A DNA stretch of 41,021 nt from Ruminococcus sp. (lineage in GTDB: Bacteria; Bacillota; Clostridia; Oscillospirales; Ruminococcaceae). A program made the translations under genes and the position numbers. This document shows positions 1-17,686 of this stretch, one piece after another. The notes under the pieces were generated by a model. The model was not told where the DNA came from, did not search any database, and saw only the letters and a list, made by a program, of their open reading frames with translations. Numbering within the stretch: position 1 is the first letter of the stretch; every line of letters begins with the position of its first letter. Where the stretch lies: NCBI GenBank assembly GCA_017649325.1, contig JAGCHA010000088.1, positions 1-41,021 of the forward strand, in the 5' to 3' direction.

Positions 1-1
1 C

Positions 2-2791
2 TAGAAGTACGGTATCAACTAGAAGGTATCCTTCAAGGTGCTCCGAGACATCATGGAGAACTCCGCAGACGCTTAGGAACTCGAGGAGAACATCAAGAAG
101 CGTGTTGATGAGCTCGTTCCCAAGCACATCATCCTCGACGATATCTTCGCAACTATCAGCTACTTCATCAACCTCTGCGAGGGCGTAGGTACAGTTGACG
201 ATATCGACCATCTCGGCAACAGACGTATCCGCTCCGTAGGCGAGCTTCTCCAGAACCAGTTCCGTATCGGCTATGCCCGTATGGAGCGCGGTATCCGCGA
301 GAGAATGAACATCCAGACTCAGGACGTGAACACCCTCACGCCCCAGACTCTCATCAATATCAGACCCATATCCTCGGCAATGAAGGAGTTCTTCTGCTCA
401 TCGCCCCTGTCCCAGTTCATGGACCAGAACAACCCCCTCGCCGAGCTTACCCATAAGAGACGTCTCTCCGCGCTCGGCCCCGGAGGTCTTTCCAGAGACC
501 GTGCGGGATTCGAGGTCCGCGACGTTCACTACAGCCACTACGGCAGAATGTGTCCTATCGAGACTCCTGAAGGACCTAACATCGGACTTATCTCCTACCT
601 TGCAACATTCGCAAGGATAAATGAGTACGGCTTCGTAGAGGCACCCTACCGCAAGGTAGACAAGGCAACGGGCGTTGTCACGAACGAGGTAGTATATATG
701 ACTGCCGACACCGAGGACAACTTCGTAGTTGCACAGGCTAACGAGCCTCTCACAGAAGACGGCAAGTTCGCACGTCCGCGTGTAAATGCAAGATACCGCG
801 AGCAGATACTCGAAATAGACAACGAAAAGGTAGACTACATGGACGTATCGCCTAAGATGGTCGTTTCCGTAGCTACCTCCATGATACCCTTCCTCGAGAA
901 CGATGACGCTAACCGTGCGCTCATGGGCTCGAACATGCAGAGACAGGCAGTACCGCTCCTCAAGACCGAGCGTCCGTTCGTCGGCACAGGTATGGAGTAC
1001 AAGGCGGCTGTTGACTCGGGCGTATGCGTAGTATCCGACTACGACGGCAAGGTAACATACGTTGACGCCGACAAGATACACATGATAGACTCCGAGGGCA
1101 TCGAGCACAAGTACGAGCTCATAAAGTTCAAGCGCTCGAACCAGGGCACGTGTGTAAACCAGAGACCTATCGTCACAGCAGGCGAAGAGGTCAAGAAGGG
1201 ACAGGTGCTCGCTGACGGTCCCGCAACCGCAGACGGCGAGATATCCCTCGGCAAGAACGCCCTCATCGGCTTCATGACATGGGAGGGCTACAACTACGAG
1301 GACGCCGTTCTTCTTAACGAGCGTCTCGTAAGAGAAGACGTATTCACATCAGTTCATATAGAAGAGTACGAGATAGAGTGCCGCGACACCAAGCTCGGAC
1401 CCGAAGAGATAACCCGCGATATTCCAAACGTCGGCGACGACGCTCTCGCGAACCTCGATGAGAACGGTATCATCCGCATCGGTTCCGAGGTAACATCGGG
1501 CGATATCCTCGTAGGTAAGGTAACGCCGAAGGGCGAGACCGAGCTCACCGCCGAGGAGAGGCTCCTCCGCGCAATCTTCGGCGAGAAGGCAAGAGAAGTC
1601 CGCGACAACTCCCTCAAGGTACCTCACGGTGAGGCCGGCGTTATCGTTGACGTCAAGGTATTCACCCGCGAGAACTGCGACGAGCTCAGCGCAGGCGTAA
1701 ACAAGCGCGTTATCTGCTACATCGCCCAGAAGCGTAAGATAACGGTCGGCGATAAGATGGCTGGTCGTCACGGTAACAAGGGCGTCGTATCGCGCATACT
1801 CCCCGAGGAGGATATGCCTTTCCTCCCCGACGGCACACCGCTCGATATCGTACTCAACCCCCTCGGTGTTCCTTCACGAATGAACATCGGACAGGTGCTT
1901 GAAGTCCACCTCGGCATGGCGTGCAAGGCTCTCGGCTGGCACATCATGACCCCTGTATTCGACGGCGCACACGAGGGTGATATCCGCGAATGCTTCAAGA
2001 TGGCAAACGACTACGCTCAGGAGCACAAGGACGATATGTTCGAGCTCAAGGCAATGGATAAGGTCATCAACCCCAAGGCACTCGAATTCACAGACGACTG
2101 TAAATTCACACTCTACGACGGACGCACAGGCGAAAAGTTCGACAACCGCGTAACGGTGGGCTATATGTACTACCTCAAGCTCCACCACCTCGTAGACGAT
2201 AAGATACACGCACGTTCGGTAGGACCGTACGCTCTCGTAACACAGCAGCCGCTCGGCGGTAAGGCGCAGTTCGGCGGACAGCGTTTCGGAGAAATGGAAG
2301 TTTGGGCTCTCGAGGCTTACGGTGCAGCCTATACTCTTCAGGAGATACTCACCGTCAAGTCAGACGATACCATCGGACGTGTCAATACCTACGAGGCAAT
2401 CGTCAAGGGACAGAACGTTCCTACACCTGGTATACCCGAGTCCTTCAAGGTCCTCATCAAGGAGATGCAGTCACTCTGCCTCGACGTCAAGGTGCTCGAC
2501 AGCAATCAGGAGGAGATCGACCTCAAGCAGAACTTCGACGACGATCCGATCCCTGCAAGAGATTCCTATGCTGACGAGGATACAGCCGACGGCACAAGCT
2601 ACTCCGACGACGAGCTCGGCGAGGCAGGCTTCGGCTTCGAGGACGGCGAAGATTTCGACAGCGTTGACAAGGATGACGAGTTCAGCTTCGACGATGACGA
2701 GTCTGAGGACGACCTCGACTTCAACGACGGGGAGGAAGGCGACGATGTATTCGACAGCTTCGACCTCGACGAGGAAGGCGACGAGAACTGA
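2..2791 (+). CDS. rpoB: RNA polymerase beta subunit, 5' end outside window, interrupted by three in-frame TAG codons
   Basis: This is the catalytic beta subunit of RNA polymerase. The frame enters the window at base 2 and runs to a TGA at 2789-2791, with TAG codons at 2-4, 20-22 and 74-76. Between and after these the translation is clearly RpoB: a [15 protein letters not shown] segment, [13 protein letters not shown], the rifampicin region ([27 protein letters not shown]), then [20 protein letters not shown] and the C-terminal [10 protein letters not shown] and [20 protein letters not shown] blocks. The ATG at 281 is an internal Met of the conserved SRMER/ARMER segment with no ribosome binding site, so it is not a real start. 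The last 60 or so residues are an unusually acidic Asp/Glu tail. rpoC follows after 52 bases. The TAGs could be sequence errors, nonsense mutations or readthrough sites; the frame is otherwise undamaged. Identity is certain; translation across the TAGs is not. Confidence 0.93.
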
Positions 2792-2843: not shown

Positions 2844-5800
2844 TTGGAAAACACGACTTTTGAATCAATAAAGATCGGTCTTGCAGCGCCCGAGCAGATA
2901 AGAAGCTGGTCGTACGGTGTTGTTGAAAGACCTGAAACTATAAATTACAGAACCCAGAAGCCCGAGAGGGACGGTCTTTTCTGCGAAAGGATATTCGGAC
3001 CCACAAAGGACTGGGAGTGTCACTGCGGCAAGTTCAAGAAGATCCGCTTCAAGGGCAAGGTCTGCGACCGCTGCGGAGTTGAGGTAACAAGAGCAAGAGT
3101 CCGCCGCGAGAGAATGGGACACATCGAGCTTGCAGCTCCCGTGTCGCACATCTGGTACTTCAAGGGCACACCGTCCCGTATCGGACAGGTGCTCGAGGTA
3201 TCGCAGAAGCGCCTCGAGGAGGTACTCTACTTCACAAAGTACATCGTAACAGACCCGGGCAACACCGAGCTTGTGAAGAAGCAGCTCCTCTCTGAGAAGG
3301 AGTACCTCTCCTACGTTGAGAAGTACGGCGACGATTTCAAGGCAGAAATGGGCGCCGAGGCTATCAAGAAGCTCCTCAACGAGTACGATCCCGCAAGATA
3401 CGACACACAGAAGAACCGCCTCATCGAAACAGGCAAGATAAACATCGGCAGCAGCCGTGTTGAGTGCTATAACAACCCGCTCGAGTGCGAGTGTGAGGAG
3501 TGCCGCAAGTTCGCGGAGCTCACAGACATCGAGTGGAAGAACAACATCGAGATAGTTTCCGACGACCTCAAAAACGAGCTCGTTGGACTTCCCTCGGGAC
3601 AGAAGAAGGTCAAGCTCTTAAAGAGACTTCAGATAATCGAGGCATTCCGCCTCTCCGGAAACAAGCCCGAGTGGATGATACTTGATGTAGTACCCGTTAT
3701 CCCGCCCGACCTCCGTCCTATGATAATGCTCGACGGCGGACGCTATGCTACATCCGACCTCAACGACCTCTACAGACGTGTTATCAACAGAAACAACCGT
3801 CTGAAGAGAATGCTCGAGCTTGACGCTCCCGACATCATCGTAAGAAACGAGAAGCGTATGCTTCAGGAAGCCGTTGACGCACTCATCGACAACGGCAGAC
3901 ACGGCAGAGCCGTAACAGGTCCGAGCAACCGTGCTCTCAAGTCGCTCTCCGATATGCTCAAGGGTAAGCAGGGACGTTTCCGTCAGAACCTTCTCGGTAA
4001 GCGTGTTGACTACTCAGGACGTTCGGTTATCGTCGTAGGACCTGAGCTGAAGATGTACCAGTGCGGTCTCCCGAAGGAGATGGCACTCGAGCTCTTCAAG
4101 CCTTTCGTACTCAAGAGACTCGTTGACAAGAAGGCAATCGCAAATATCAAGTCCGCAAGAAAGCTCATCGACCGTGCCGACAACAAGGTATGGGACGCTC
4201 TCGAGGACGTCATCAAGGACCACCCCGTAATGCTCAACCGAGCTCCTACGCTCCACCGTCTTGGTATACAGGCATTCGAGCCGATACTCGTAGAGGGCAG
4301 AGCCATCAAGCTCCACCCGCTCGTATGTTCGGCGTTCAACGCTGACTTCGACGGCGACCAGATGGCTGTACATCTCCCGCTCTCGGCAGAGGCACAGGCA
4401 GAGGCGAGATTCCTTATGCTTGCGGCAAACAACCTCCTCAAGCCCTCGGACGGAAAGCCTGTTGCCGTACCTTCGCAGGATATGGTACTCGGTTCCTACT
4501 ACCTTACAATGGATAAGCCCGGCGAGCCGGGTGAGGGCAAGGTGTTCCGTGACGTGAACGAGGCTCTCATGGCGTACTACGAGCACGACGTATCACTCCA
4601 CGCGAATATCAAGGTCAAGATAACGAAGGACATCGGCGACAAGAAGGTGTCCAAGATAATAGACGCAACAGTCGGAAGACTCATCTTCAACGAGAACATC
4701 CCGCAGAACCTCGGATACGTTGACAGAACGAACTCCGACAAGCAGTTCGACCTCGAGGTAGCATTCCTCGTAGGCAAGAAGCAGCTCTCCGACATCATCG
4801 AGCGCTGCATCAAGATACACGGCACAACAACGACCTCCGAGGTACTTGACCGTATCAAGGCTCTCGGATACAAATACTCCACAAGAGCAGCTCTTACCGT
4901 TGCTGTATGTGATGCCTCCATTCCTCCGCAGAAGAAGGAGATACTCGCAAAGGCTGACGAGGAGGTTGCACGTATCACAGAGGATTACGAGTACGGCTAC
5001 ATCTCCGCAGAGGAGAAGTCCAAGCAGGTAATCGAGCTCTGGACCAACACCAACGACGAGGTTACAGCCGCACTGAAGGCAAACTTCGACCGCTACAATC
5101 CTATCTGGATGATGGCGGACTCGGGTGCCCGTGGTTCTATCTCTCAGATACGTCAGCTCGCAGGAATGCGCGGACTTATCGCCAACACCTCGGGTGCCGT
5201 AATCGAGATCCCTATCAGAGCTAACTACCGTGAAGGTCTTAACATCCTCGAATACTTCATCGCATCCCGTGGTGCCCGTAAGGGACTTGCCGATACGGCT
5301 CTCCGTACCGCTGACTCGGGTTACCTGACCCGTCGTCTCGTTGACGTATCACAGGACGTTATCATCCGCGAGGAGGATTGCGGTACAACAGACGGTATCG
5401 AGGTATACGAGATAAAGAACGGCAACGAGATAGTCGAGCCGTTTGCAGAGCGTCTCGTAGGCAGATTCCTCTCGGAGGACCTCCGCGACGAGGCAGGCGA
5501 GCTCATCGTCTCCAAGAACAAGCTCATCAACGACGCAGACGCCAAGAAGATAATCGAGGCAGGCGTCGAGAGGATAACCATCCGCTCCGTGCTCAACTGT
5601 AAGGCAAGGAACGGCGTATGCGCCAAGTGCTACGGTGCTAACCTCGCATTCAACAACGTAGTATCGGTCGGCGAAGCTGTCGGCGTAATTGCCGCACAGT
5701 CCATCGGCGAGCCCGGTACACAGCTCACCATGAGAACCTTCCATACCGGCGGTGTTGCATCTGCCGACGCGGAAGATATCACACAGGGTCTTCCCCGTGT

Positions 5801-6566
5801 CGAGGAGCTCTTCGAGAGCAGACGTCCCAAGGGCGCGGCTATCCTCTCCAAGATATCGGGCAGGATAACCATTGAGGAAGTAAAGACCACCCGCAATATC
5901 ATCGTTACCAACGACGAGACAGGCGAGAGCGAGAGCTACATGATACCTTACAACCTCAAGATACGCGTATAGGAGGGCGAGCAGATAACCAAGGGCACGC
6001 GCCTCACCGAGGGCAACATCTACCCGACAGATATCCTCAATATCCTCGGCATCCACGACGTTCAGAACTACATCATCAACGAAGTTCAGAAGGTTTACCG
6101 CTTACAGGGTGTTGACATCAACGACAAGCACATCGAGGTAATCGTACGTCAGATGCTCCGCAAGGTCAAGGTCGAGGATTCGGGCAGCAGCTACCTGCTC
6201 CCGGGCAACCTTGTAGACCGCAAGGAGATAGACGCAATAAACGAGGAACTTCAGGCACGTATAGACGCAGGCGAGTACGATGTACAGCTCGTACAGGTAA
6301 CTCCCGTGCTTCAGGGTATCACGAAGGCATCCTCCAACTCCGACAGCTTCATGTCGGCGGCTTCCTTCCAGGAGACCACAAAGGCGCTCACAGACGCCGC
6401 AATCAGAGGCAAGAGCGACAAGCTCCTCGGACTCAAGGAGAACGTTATCATCGGTAAGCTCATACCCGCAGGTACAGGTATGGACTGCTACAGCCATGTC
6501 AAGGTCGTAAAGAACGAGACAGCAGCCGAGCACAATCCCGCGATAAACAACGCTCCGATAGTTTAA
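2844..6566 (+). CDS. rpoC: RNA polymerase beta' subunit, interrupted by one in-frame TAG
   Basis: This is the beta' subunit, partner of RpoB. The TTG start at 2844 is chosen because an AGGAGG site lies 7 bases upstream (2831-2836). The N-terminal zinc site is visible as CHCG followed by CDRCG (about residues 59-77). The catalytic magnesium loop is [14 protein letters not shown]. The C-terminal zinc cysteines are in [17 protein letters not shown] at 5970-5972 (codon 1043) splits the gene. The frame continues without any shift as [14 protein letters not shown], then [31 protein letters not shown] and [14 protein letters not shown], and stops at TAA 6564-6566. Full length would be 1240 residues, normal for Clostridia. 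A standard gene call would give a 1042-residue protein plus an orphan C-terminal piece starting near 6153. The lost C-terminal part is essential in known RpoC, so either readthrough, a second gene copy or a sequence error must be involved. Confidence 0.95.
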
Positions 6567-7906: not shown

Positions 7907-10078
7907 ATGAATCATAAAAAACGTCCGGTTATCGCCGTAGTGACTGCTCTTGCGAACGGTTTTGCGGAGAAGGAGATACTCGGCGGTATCATTTCAGAGA
8001 ACAGGAAAAACGGCTATCCTACGGTCGTTTTCTCGAATATTTACAACATTGTCCAGCAGAACGACGAGCTCCTATGCGAACAGAAGATATACGATTTTGT
8101 ACGTTCGCCAGATATCAGCGGCATAATACTGCTCTGCGAATCCTTTGTCGAGGATCATATACGCAAGCGCATCACTTCCTTGCTCAGCAGGATTAATGCC
8201 CCGATAATCGGCATAGGCACACGCCTTGACGAGTTTGAGCCTCTCGACTACACCCTGCTCAGTACCGATGATGTCGCCGACATGGAGGAACTCACCTCGC
8301 ATCTTATCGAGGCACATGGCTTCAGGGACATCGACATCCTCACAGGAATGCAGGAGATAGAGTCCTCTCGGCTTCGTGTCGTGGGCTACCTCAGCGCGCT
8401 CAGGGCATACGGGATAGCTCCCGACGAGAGCAGGATACATTACGGCGACTTCTGGTTCACCTCGGGCGAGCAGCTTGCCGACCGTTATATCAGCGGCGAG
8501 CTTAAGTTACCGCAGGCGGTGGTCTGCGCTAACGACTTTATGGCATACGGTATGCTGCGCCGCTTTTCGGACGCGGGCATACGCGTTCCCGAACAGGTCA
8601 CGGTCGTTAGCTATGAATATTCCGACATACGTATCTACTACTCGCCCGCGCTGACATCTATGCGCAAGAACCGACGTGCTCTCGGAGCTGCCGCAGCAGC
8701 CCGTCTGCAAGCTGTTCTTGAGGGCAGGACTCCGCCCGAGTTCGTGCCGCCGCGCGGTGAGTTGGTATTCGGCGGGAGCTGTCCCTGCAAAGGTGATGAG
8801 GCTCGGTCGCTGTCGGAGCTCCGCGACGCTGAGCGCCGCAAGAACTTTATCGACCTCAGCCTGTTCAGCACCATGGAGCACAGGCTCACACTCTGCCGCG
8901 ATATGAAGGAATTCATAAGCATAATCAGCGACCACCAGTGGATGATACAGGACAAGCGCAACATCTTTCTCTGCCTCTTCTCTGACTGGAACGAGGCTGA
9001 TCCGGAGAATTCATCTATAATGCATTCGGTCAGCATGATAGACGGCACAGAGGCATTCGAGGCTGACTGCCTTGACCTGCGCGTTTTCTTCGAGCGCGAC
9101 CGTGATTCCTCTGTCTGCTACCTGAACCCGCTCTTTTCCGGAAAGAAACTTTTCGGCTATATGGCACTGCTCTATGGTTCGGCTTCGAGCTACGACGACG
9201 TATACCGTCACTGGCTGAAATCCGTCTCGATAGGATTGGAGTTCCTGCGCCTGAAAAACGATATCCGCTACCTGATAAGCTGCCAGAACGTGTCCGAATA
9301 CAGGGACACGCTCACGGGCATGAACAATAAGAAGGGACTGCGCCGCGCATTTCAGGCGGTGCGTATCCACAACAACAGGAGACTGTATTTCGTTGCGCTC
9401 CGTATCGACCTCTTTCCGCGCCAGCTCAACGATGAAGAGATACGCCGCAAGACTGAGGCTGTCATCGGAGTGTCGAAGGCGATAGCGAAGTTCTGCGGGA
9501 ATCATGATATATCGGGGCGCGTGGCAGAGGATACGTTCGTCTGCCTCGTGCAGAGCCTTGTCGAGCCCGATGTAGTTGCCGATCTGCTTGGAGCAGTGCT
9601 GTTACAGGAGAGGGCATACATCGACTACGCGGGGACGAGCTCATTCGCCTGCTGCGCCATACCCTGCGAGAGCGAGAGTTTTGACAGCCTCCTTGCACAG
9701 AGCACGGAACGGATAAACGAGGAACAACGCAGGATAGCTGCGTTCCGAAAGAATCGGTACTACGCGGATATGCTCGCCGTGCGCGACCGCATATACTCCG
9801 AGACCGAGATCACCTTTGACTCTGACAGCGAAAACAGCTTCACCGACCGTATCGATTTCTTCCGCCGCAACTACAAGAGCTGCTTCGGCACAGCCTTTCA
9901 TCAGGACTGCATAAATGCGCGTATCGCAAAGGCAAAATACTACCTTGCGACCACCTCACTGGCTATAACCGACATTTCCGAGAAGTGCGGCTACGTAGAC
10001 TACAAATACTTCCAGCGGCAGTTCACAGCCAATACGGGACTGCCCGCATTGAGATACAGGAACCTGATAAAGGGGTAG
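7907..10078 (+). CDS. Hybrid transcription regulator: LacI-type sensor, degenerate GGDEF-like domain, AraC-type HTH
   Basis: A 723-residue regulator. The ATG at 7907 follows GGGAGGCG; an in-frame TTG at 7892 would overlap that site. Residues 1 to about 280 resemble the periplasmic-binding-protein fold of LacI/GalR sensors (RPVIAVVTALANGFAEKEIL, GEQLADRYISGE, VVCANDFMAYGMLRRF), but the usual N-terminal LacI helix-turn-helix is missing. From about residue 465, RDTLTGMNNKKGLRRAF matches the start of a GGDEF domain. The catalytic loop reads VAEDTF (about 539-544) in place of GGDEF, so cyclase activity is not expected. Residues 665-723 form an AraC/XylS-type HTH (AITDISEKCGYVDYKYFQRQF). It lies directly upstream of the GH5 cellulase in the same orientation, so control of cellulase expression by a sugar ligand is a reasonable inference. 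It ends in TAG, one of only two annotated genes here to do so. Confidence 0.85.
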   Translation: MNHKKRPVIAVVTALANGFAEKEILGGIISENRKNGYPTVVFSNIYNIVQQNDELLCEQKIYDFVRSPDISGIILLCESFVEDHIRKRITSLLSRINAPIIGIGTRLDEFEPLDYTLLSTDDVADMEELTSHLIEAHGFRDIDILTGMQEIESSRLRVVGYLSALRAYGIAPDESRIHYGDFWFTSGEQLADRYISGELKLPQAVVCANDFMAYGMLRRFSDAGIRVPEQVTVVSYEYSDIRIYYSPALTSMRKNRRALGAAAAARLQAVLEGRTPPEFVPPRGELVFGGSCPCKGDEARSLSELRDAERRKNFIDLSLFSTMEHRLTLCRDMKEFISIISDHQWMIQDKRNIFLCLFSDWNEADPENSSIMHSVSMIDGTEAFEADCLDLRVFFERDRDSSVCYLNPLFSGKKLFGYMALLYGSASSYDDVYRHWLKSVSIGLEFLRLKNDIRYLISCQNVSEYRDTLTGMNNKKGLRRAFQAVRIHNNRRLYFVALRIDLFPRQLNDEEIRRKTEAVIGVSKAIAKFCGNHDISGRVAEDTFVCLVQSLVEPDVVADLLGAVLLQERAYIDYAGTSSFACCAIPCESESFDSLLAQSTERINEEQRRIAAFRKNRYYADMLAVRDRIYSETEITFDSDSENSFTDRIDFFRRNYKSCFGTAFHQDCINARIAKAKYYLATTSLAITDISEKCGYVDYKYFQRQFTANTGLPALRYRNLIKG

Positions 10079-10113: not shown

Positions 10114-10142
10114 TTGTAAATAATCCTCTCTGAATGTACAAT
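10114..10142 (+). promoter_or_regulatory. Promoter for the GH5 cellulase
   Basis: TTGTAA at 10114-10119 and TACAAT at 10137-10142 with a 17-base spacer. The GH5 start codon is 50 bases downstream. It lies in the 113-base gap between the hybrid regulator and the cellulase, which is where an AraC-type operator would be sought. Confidence 0.6.
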
Positions 10143-10191
10143 AGTTACGATAAGCAATGTGCGTGACTATTTCTTTCAGGGAGGATTTTTT

Positions 10192-12773: not shown

Positions 12774-13031
12774 ATGAGACTGATAAACATCGGCTACGGG
12801 AATATGATATCCGCAGCAAGGATAGTAACGATAGTCAGTCCCGATTCCGCCCCGATAAAGCGCCTGATACAGGAGGCTAAGGACGACGGCAGGGCTATCG
12901 ACGCAACATACGGCCGCAAGACGCGAGCGGTGATAGTGATGGACAGCGGACACATGATACTGTCCTCGCTGATAACCGAGACACTTGCGGCGAGAATAAA
13001 CGGGACAGGTGATACAGAAAATGAAGAATAA
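12774..13031 (+). CDS. remA: RemA/DUF370 regulatory protein
   Basis: An 85-residue RemA-like protein. In B. subtilis RemA is a DNA-binding activator of matrix genes and osmoprotection, forming ring-like oligomers. The conserved family pattern is nearly complete: [56 protein letters not shown] and [13 protein letters not shown]. The C-terminus has an extra short polar tail ([11 protein letters not shown]). The ATG at 12774 is three bases after the yicC stop. The 3' end overlaps the gmk start by 11 bases. Whether it controls matrix genes in this organism is unknown; its position next to gmk is the standard one in Firmicutes. Confidence 0.92.
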
Positions 13032-13629
13032 AGGCAGACTTATCGTGTTCTCAGCGCCGTCGGGCTGCGGAAAGGGCACGATGCTCGCGGAGATACTGAA
13101 AGATGAGAGCTTCCGCTGCTCGGTGTCGGCAACGACCCGCAAGCCGCGCGAGGGAGAAGTCGAGGGCGTGAACTACTACTACATCACGAACGAGGAGTTC
13201 GAAAGCAGGGTAGCTAACGGAGAATTTCTCGAGCACGCAGGCTACTGCGACCACTACTACGGCACGCTCAAGTCCGAGGTAGACCCCTACCTCGAAAAGG
13301 GCATCAACGTCGTACTCGAGATAGAGGTACAGGGAGCAATGAACATCCGCAAGGCGCGTCCCGATGCGCTGCTCGTGTTTATTGCGCCGCCGTCGGTGCA
13401 GGAGCTCAGCCGCCGCCTCCACAAGCGCGGCACCGAGACCGAAGAGGTCATCGCGCAGCGTGTAGCTGCCGCATACGAGGAACTGACATACGCTCCGAAA
13501 TACGATTACATTATAGTCAACGACGCTCTTGAAGACGCGGTCAGCGACTTCTTCGCGGTGATACGCGCAGAGCAGCTGAACTCGAAATATCAGAGCGAAT
13601 TTATAGATGAGGTGTTAAAAAATGCTTAG
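13021..13629 (+). CDS. gmk: Guanylate kinase
   Basis: A 202-residue guanylate kinase that phosphorylates GMP to GDP with ATP, in cytosolic purine metabolism. The P-loop is [11 protein letters not shown]. The GMP-binding region includes [19 protein letters not shown] and [14 protein letters not shown], and the core continues with [15 protein letters not shown] and [20 protein letters not shown]. The ATG at 13021 is preferred; an upstream in-frame GTG at 13009 overlaps the AGGTG site. The gene overlaps remA upstream and rpoZ downstream (by 8 bases, ATGCTTAG). It stops at TAG. If that TAG were read as sense the protein would gain 11 residues before a TGA near 13662, which is not a family feature, so TAG appears to be a genuine stop here. 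Confidence 0.96.
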
Positions 13630-16756: not shown

Positions 16757-17686
16757 ATGAAGGTAGTATTCATGGGAACTCCCGATTTTGCGGTACCGTG
16801 CCTGCGCGCACTCGCGGAGGGCGGCTGTGAAGTCGCGGCGGTGTTCACACAGCCCGACAAGCCGAAGGGCAGGGGATACAAGATGATACCCACCCCCGTG
16901 AAGCTGGCGGCAGAGGAGTATGGCATCCCCGTGTACCAGCCGCTCTCGCTGAGAAAAGGTGAGGACGCGGAGGAGAGTATGCGAATCTTGAACGATATTG
17001 CTCCCGAACTGATAGTGGTCACGGCATACGGACAGATACTGCCGAAGGAGATACTGGAACTTCCCGGGTACGGCTGCGTGAACATCCACGCGTCGCTGCT
17101 CCCGAGGTACAGGGGAGCTGCGCCGATAAACTGGGTCCTGCTCAACGGCGAGACCGAAACGGGCGTGACCTCAATGCAGATGAGCGAGGGACTTGACACT
17201 GGCGATATGCTCATCAGGAGGAGCACGAAGATCGGCGAAAACGAGACATATGAGGAGCTTTACGCCCGCCTGTCCGCAATGGGCGGCGAGGTGCTCATGG
17301 ATACGATAAAGGCAATAGAGAGCGGCACGCTCACCCCCGAGAAGCAGGACGACACACAGACCTGCTATTCACCGATGATACGCAAGGAGATGAGCGCACT
17401 TGACTTCACAAAGACGGCTGCCGAGGTACACAACACCATCAGAGGCGTGACGGGCTTTGCAATGCTTGAGGGCAAGCGTATCAAGGTCTATCGCTCGGTG
17501 ATTTCGGACAAAATTGCTGCCGATGCGGAGAACGGCGCGATAGTCGACACCGCTTCCTTCACTGTGAAATGCGGTGACGGCAGATGCGTGACCTTTCTCG
17601 AAGTCCAGCCCGAGGGCAAGAAGCGTATGAAAACGGAGGATTTCCTCCGCGGAAAGAAGCTGACACAGGGCGAAGTCCTCGCCTGA
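16757..17686 (+). CDS. fmt: Methionyl-tRNA formyltransferase
   Basis: A 309-residue enzyme that formylates initiator Met-tRNA using 10-formyltetrahydrofolate. MKVVFMGTPDFAVPCL and VFTQPDKPKGRG open the N-terminal domain. The active-site block is GCVNIHASLLPRYRGAAPIN, with the catalytic Asn-His-Asp set completed by EGLDTGDML. The C-terminal OB-like domain is shorter and less conserved. The ATG at 16757 follows GAGGAGG at the end of def. The next gene starts 13 bases later, in the same operon. Confidence 0.96.
   Translation: MKVVFMGTPDFAVPCLRALAEGGCEVAAVFTQPDKPKGRGYKMIPTPVKLAAEEYGIPVYQPLSLRKGEDAEESMRILNDIAPELIVVTAYGQILPKEILELPGYGCVNIHASLLPRYRGAAPINWVLLNGETETGVTSMQMSEGLDTGDMLIRRSTKIGENETYEELYARLSAMGGEVLMDTIKAIESGTLTPEKQDDTQTCYSPMIRKEMSALDFTKTAAEVHNTIRGVTGFAMLEGKRIKVYRSVISDKIAADAENGAIVDTASFTVKCGDGRCVTFLEVQPEGKKRMKTEDFLRGKKLTQGEVLA

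Follow-up and report, generated by a model that had tools for sequence, protein, structure and literature searches.

In-frame TAG codons in rpoB and rpoC of a Ruminococcus draft genome: probable base errors, at a contig edge in rpoB, rather than a UAG read as sense

The rpoB–rpoC locus and its TAG codons

The stretch of DNA analysed here (the window) is 41,021 nucleotides long and constitutes one entire contig (C64, positions 1–41,021), base 1 being the contig edge. The draft genome to which it belongs comprises 143 contigs totalling 2.23 Mb and is 83.7% complete. The organism is Ruminococcus-like: among the matches listed, the best-matching named rpoB records are from Ruminococcus metagenome genomes, and the window also contains a GH5-dockerin gene. 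Rfam and ARAGORN gave no matches on the window.

The first gene, on the forward strand, is rpoB (2–2791). The contig edge truncates it at its 5' end, and the missing portion is found on a second contig of the same genome, C136. As an earlier note on this DNA had observed, the frame contains TAG at 2–4, 20–22 and 74–76 and no later frameshift; it stays open until a TGA at 2789–2791, and this continuation carries the expected Rpb2 domains. We have annotated bases 1–76 (forward strand), within rpoB, as the edge of a contig where base errors are probable. The next gene on the same strand, rpoC (2844–6566), holds the fourth TAG that the note had claimed, which we place at 5970–5972; the frame runs on to a TAA at 6564–6566 and aligns past the TAG with the RpoC proteins of relatives. 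It is also correct that a Lys or Glu codon follows each TAG (AAG, AAG and GAA in rpoB, then Glu at the rpoC site). The TAG letters are thus genuine, but they are very probably not biology.

For comparison 109 rpoB loci were given (29 plus 80 named records), at least one pair of which looks like the same contig, and 107 of them could be aligned over the start of the window. A stop at 2–4, 20–22 or 74–76 occurs in none of the 107. The site at 20–22 is nearly invariant (Glu in 103, Gly in 3, Asp in 1), that at 74–76 is Glu in 53 and Asp in 39, and that at 2–4 varies (Glu 44, Lys 21, Ala 13, Asp 5, the rest others). In the four closest loci the three codons read GAG/GAG/GAG (twice), GAG/GAG/GAC and GAT/GAG/GAA. 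The rpoC site was covered by 19 of the 23 loci given, 11 of them from the same genus; no stop occurs in the 19, and the 11 same-genus loci have CAG (Gln) in nine cases and TCA and CGT in one each.

The earlier view that the original rpoB residues cannot be fixed, since Gln, Glu and Lys would all fit, can now be largely set aside, because C136 reads Glu at two of the sites and close relatives have Glu or Asp at the third. Judged from these sequences, the residues in the cell are most likely acidic: Glu, Glu, and Glu or Asp.

The overlapping contig C136 and other contig ends

When window bases 1–200 were searched against the same genome, bases 12947–12999 of C136 matched window bases 3–55. Window bases 1 and 2 are covered by C136 as well, giving an overlap of window 1–55, and on C136 the 5' part of rpoB reads as an open frame without stops. 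The two copies differ at three positions, 2, 20 and 46, where the change from C136 to the window is G>T, G>T and C>A, respectively. C136 has GAG (Glu) at both 2–4 and 20–22; the site at 74–76 lies just beyond the overlap. At 2, 20 and 46, then, an independent copy of these bases disagrees with the window, as expected of an error at a contig end. The earlier note had left three possibilities, namely that the cell reads TAG, that it holds another copy of the gene, or that the bases are wrong, and it is the last which C136 favours.

C136 and the window are taken to be neighbours because they abut in the gene order of a close relative, G008, where the ends of C136 match stretch L221 at 16358 and 2772 and the window starts at 2824 of the same stretch. 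Past the point corresponding to window base 55, C136 (L193) continues up to its own end with 232 bases (13000–13231) unrelated to rpoB. The minus-strand translation of this tail has a weak likeness to Helicase_C (14.7 bits against a cut-off of 23.5), and the tail therefore looks, from its sequence, like a chimeric end. Since the tail is unrelated to rpoB and the window tip conflicts with C136, both sides of the junction are damaged.

The possibility of another rpoB copy found no support in the genome, in which rpoB was matched once and no second copy was matched. The related proposal, that this rpoB–rpoC is a second copy in decay, or a pseudogene, whose intact counterpart was lost in binning, could draw on the incompleteness of the draft (83.7%); we give it next to no credence. 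No second stretch of rpoC (5800–6150) was found in the genome either, the stops are confined to the contig tip and one other codon, and C136 provides the 5' half of rpoB without stops. In addition, 119 of the 129 differences between this rpoB and that of G008 fall at third codon positions, which speaks against decay.

Other contig ends of the same genome behave in a comparable manner. We examined 127 of the 286 ends, 14 of these 127 being mostly N. Eleven antiparallel end matches exceeded 90% identity, of which four pairs were not end-to-end and were dropped; the seven overlaps kept, including that between C136 and the window, range from 36 to 374 bases, four with mismatches and three with none. 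The overlap between C20 and C9 (L093/L198) is 374 bases long and has nine mismatches (up to 2.4%), and it includes an in-frame TGA near base 85 of C9 where C20, near base 292, has AGA in an open frame. From this and the other mismatched overlaps it follows that the overlapping ends of this assembly can disagree, with a stop (TGA, not TAG) in one copy only. Divergence from G008 at contig ends was also considered; too few ends aligned for a rate. As a separate observation, contigs C84 (L034) and C91 (L035) share identical first 141 bases (100%), including a tRNA-Met gene. Two contigs of G008, L298 and L299, have one tRNA-Met each near one end, and given this likeness the 141-base duplicate may be a real repeat.

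Strain mixing may contribute to the overlap mismatches, and the ends could differ through strains instead of errors, three of the seven overlaps being free of mismatch. A stronger form of this idea is that the window tip derives from another strain of the same species that was mixed into the bin and carries real nonsense changes. The disagreement of up to 2.4% between overlapping ends is what strain mixing would give. The rpoB gene is essential, however, and three nonsense codons within 25 are not viable without suppression in any strain; this origin of the tip is accordingly rated as highly improbable, if a shade less so than the pseudogene.

An unlikely alternative: UAG as a sense codon

There remains the possibility that UAG is decoded in this strain, by a suppressor tRNA or under an altered code, as Glu or Gln. 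Several observations could be cited for it: rpoB, with its single match in the genome, is otherwise conserved, as the third-position differences indicate; the rpoC TAG is mid-contig and sits where nine of the 11 same-genus loci have Gln; and in a check of ORFs for homologues in G008 (23 of the 255 had a match at ≥75%, a small sample) every stop inside a real gene was a TAG, and each of these lay in rpoB or rpoC. In that check a TAA at 10117 of the window was found to lie upstream of a start at 10159. On the other side stand the GAG codons of C136 at two of the sites and the results that follow, and we regard sense reading of UAG as extremely unlikely.

Under reassignment of UAG one would expect loss or change of release factor 1. 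The prfA gene is present in an open frame, and its product scores 526.8 bits against the TIGR00019 equivalog (cut-off 423.25). A tRNA with a CUA anticodon was not called at any locus of the 28 tRNA hits, a set from which many tRNAs are missing and in which one contig-edge hit is uncalled; for G008, none was called in 25 of the 30 loci for its 55 tRNA hits. A suppressor tRNA could be present and unseen, the genome being 83.7% complete with many tRNAs missing.

A reassigned TAG should also be avoided as a terminator. Among the 21 gene ends that were compared, TGA occurs 12 times, TAA eight times and TAG once. The single TAG, at 10076–10078 on the forward strand, is the ordinary terminator of an AraC-like regulator gene, and the G008 homologue (85.8% identical) ends with TAG at the same place. 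TAG thus terminates a gene where the relative also uses it, although the argument about avoidance rests on this one case.

Lastly, reassignment would place in-frame TAG codons at conserved positions in many genes. A coding-score scan was made of a 373 kb sample, of which 12 kb was masked; it needs 40 codons on each side of a stop and is blind to contig tips. The only TAG scoring ≥0.3 on both sides was that in rpoC, and it was again the only one in a smaller sample at a threshold of 0.2. At low threshold the scan gave mostly shadow-frame noise (19 TAG in this genome and 29 in G008), and only high-scoring sites were used. On the scans and the comparison of terminators we reject genome-wide recoding of TAG. 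Two other candidates on contig C97 were discarded: a TAA at 17658, the one other site to score ≥0.3 on both sides, marks the boundary of two in-frame adjacent genes, and a 621-residue frame with three TGA codons was first considered a broken gene, but its alignment suggests that the stops fall in a shadow frame preceding the true start codon.

A narrower variant would place an amber suppressor in part of the population only, with UAG in rpoB and rpoC read as Glu or Gln and C136 derived from a suppressor-free strain; we attach only a minute probability to it. A literature search for UAG stop codons and suppressor tRNAs in Ruminococcus found no paper. Genetic code 15, in which TAG specifies Gln, is reported for crAss-like phages (PMC9523058). 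The present case resembles those phages in having in-frame TAG within an otherwise conserved gene; it differs in that RF1 is present, TAG terminates, the same genome contradicts two of the sites, and close relatives have Glu or Asp, not Gln, at the rpoB positions.

Kind of base change and origin of the codons

The third TAG of rpoB (74–76) is, like the two in the overlap, a G>T change, in this case relative to both G008 and the intact relative L005. Between window bases 3 and 4285, G>T accounts for only four of the 197 substitutions that separate the window from G008, and two of these four are at TAG sites. In comparisons with more distant relatives G>T is seen more often (30 of 701 for L014). 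As far as these comparisons of sequence go, the pattern points to an error process and not to ordinary divergence; oxidised bases and errors at read ends are candidate processes.

That all three stops are TAG has a simple counterpart in the codons of the gene. Across the homologous 25 codons of L005, eight of the nine single-base changes that give a stop yield TAG, as do 185 of 276 over 927 codons. Most stop-giving changes being of this kind, the TAG-only pattern needs no recoding, and the L005 counts bear out the caution of the earlier note that it is no proof of recoding. Within the same 25 codons there are 22 possible G>T changes, four of which yield a stop, in each case TAG. For three G>T changes made at random, the chance that every one yields a stop is about 0.3% (by hand from the L005 counts), but the site was chosen for its stops.

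We judge the rpoB TAGs to be sequence errors because C136 of the same genome reads Glu codons at two of them. From the sequence evidence it is almost certain that all three arose as base errors where an assembled contig of the draft genome ends. The third would have the same cause as the two that C136 contradicts. That cause would be error-bearing reads at a contig tip of low support or tangled between strains, with changes from G:C to T:A at the tip. Draft metagenome assemblies are known to carry base errors and chimeric tips at the ends of their contigs. The present case resembles these in the position of the TAGs within 76 bases of the edge, in the conflict within the overlap and in the unrelated sequence at the end of C136. 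Nothing essential differs; what is unusual is that all three nonsense changes are TAG.

The rpoC codon requires a separate explanation, as it lies mid-contig and nothing within the genome contradicts it directly. Its most likely origin is a consensus error distinct from those in rpoB, or a base from a minor strain. An isolated error is likely here because of the codons found in relatives, because the residue is variable within the genus, and because RpoC is essential.

Sense reading of UAG in an essential gene would, for a Ruminococcus-like bacterium, amount to a striking variant of the code, but that is not where the evidence leads. The case serves instead as a caution. Before an in-frame stop within about 100 bases of a draft contig's edge is taken at face value, it should be checked against any overlapping contig from that genome. 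Where GAG, AAG, CAG and TAC codons abound in a gene, most nonsense errors that arise by chance will be TAG.
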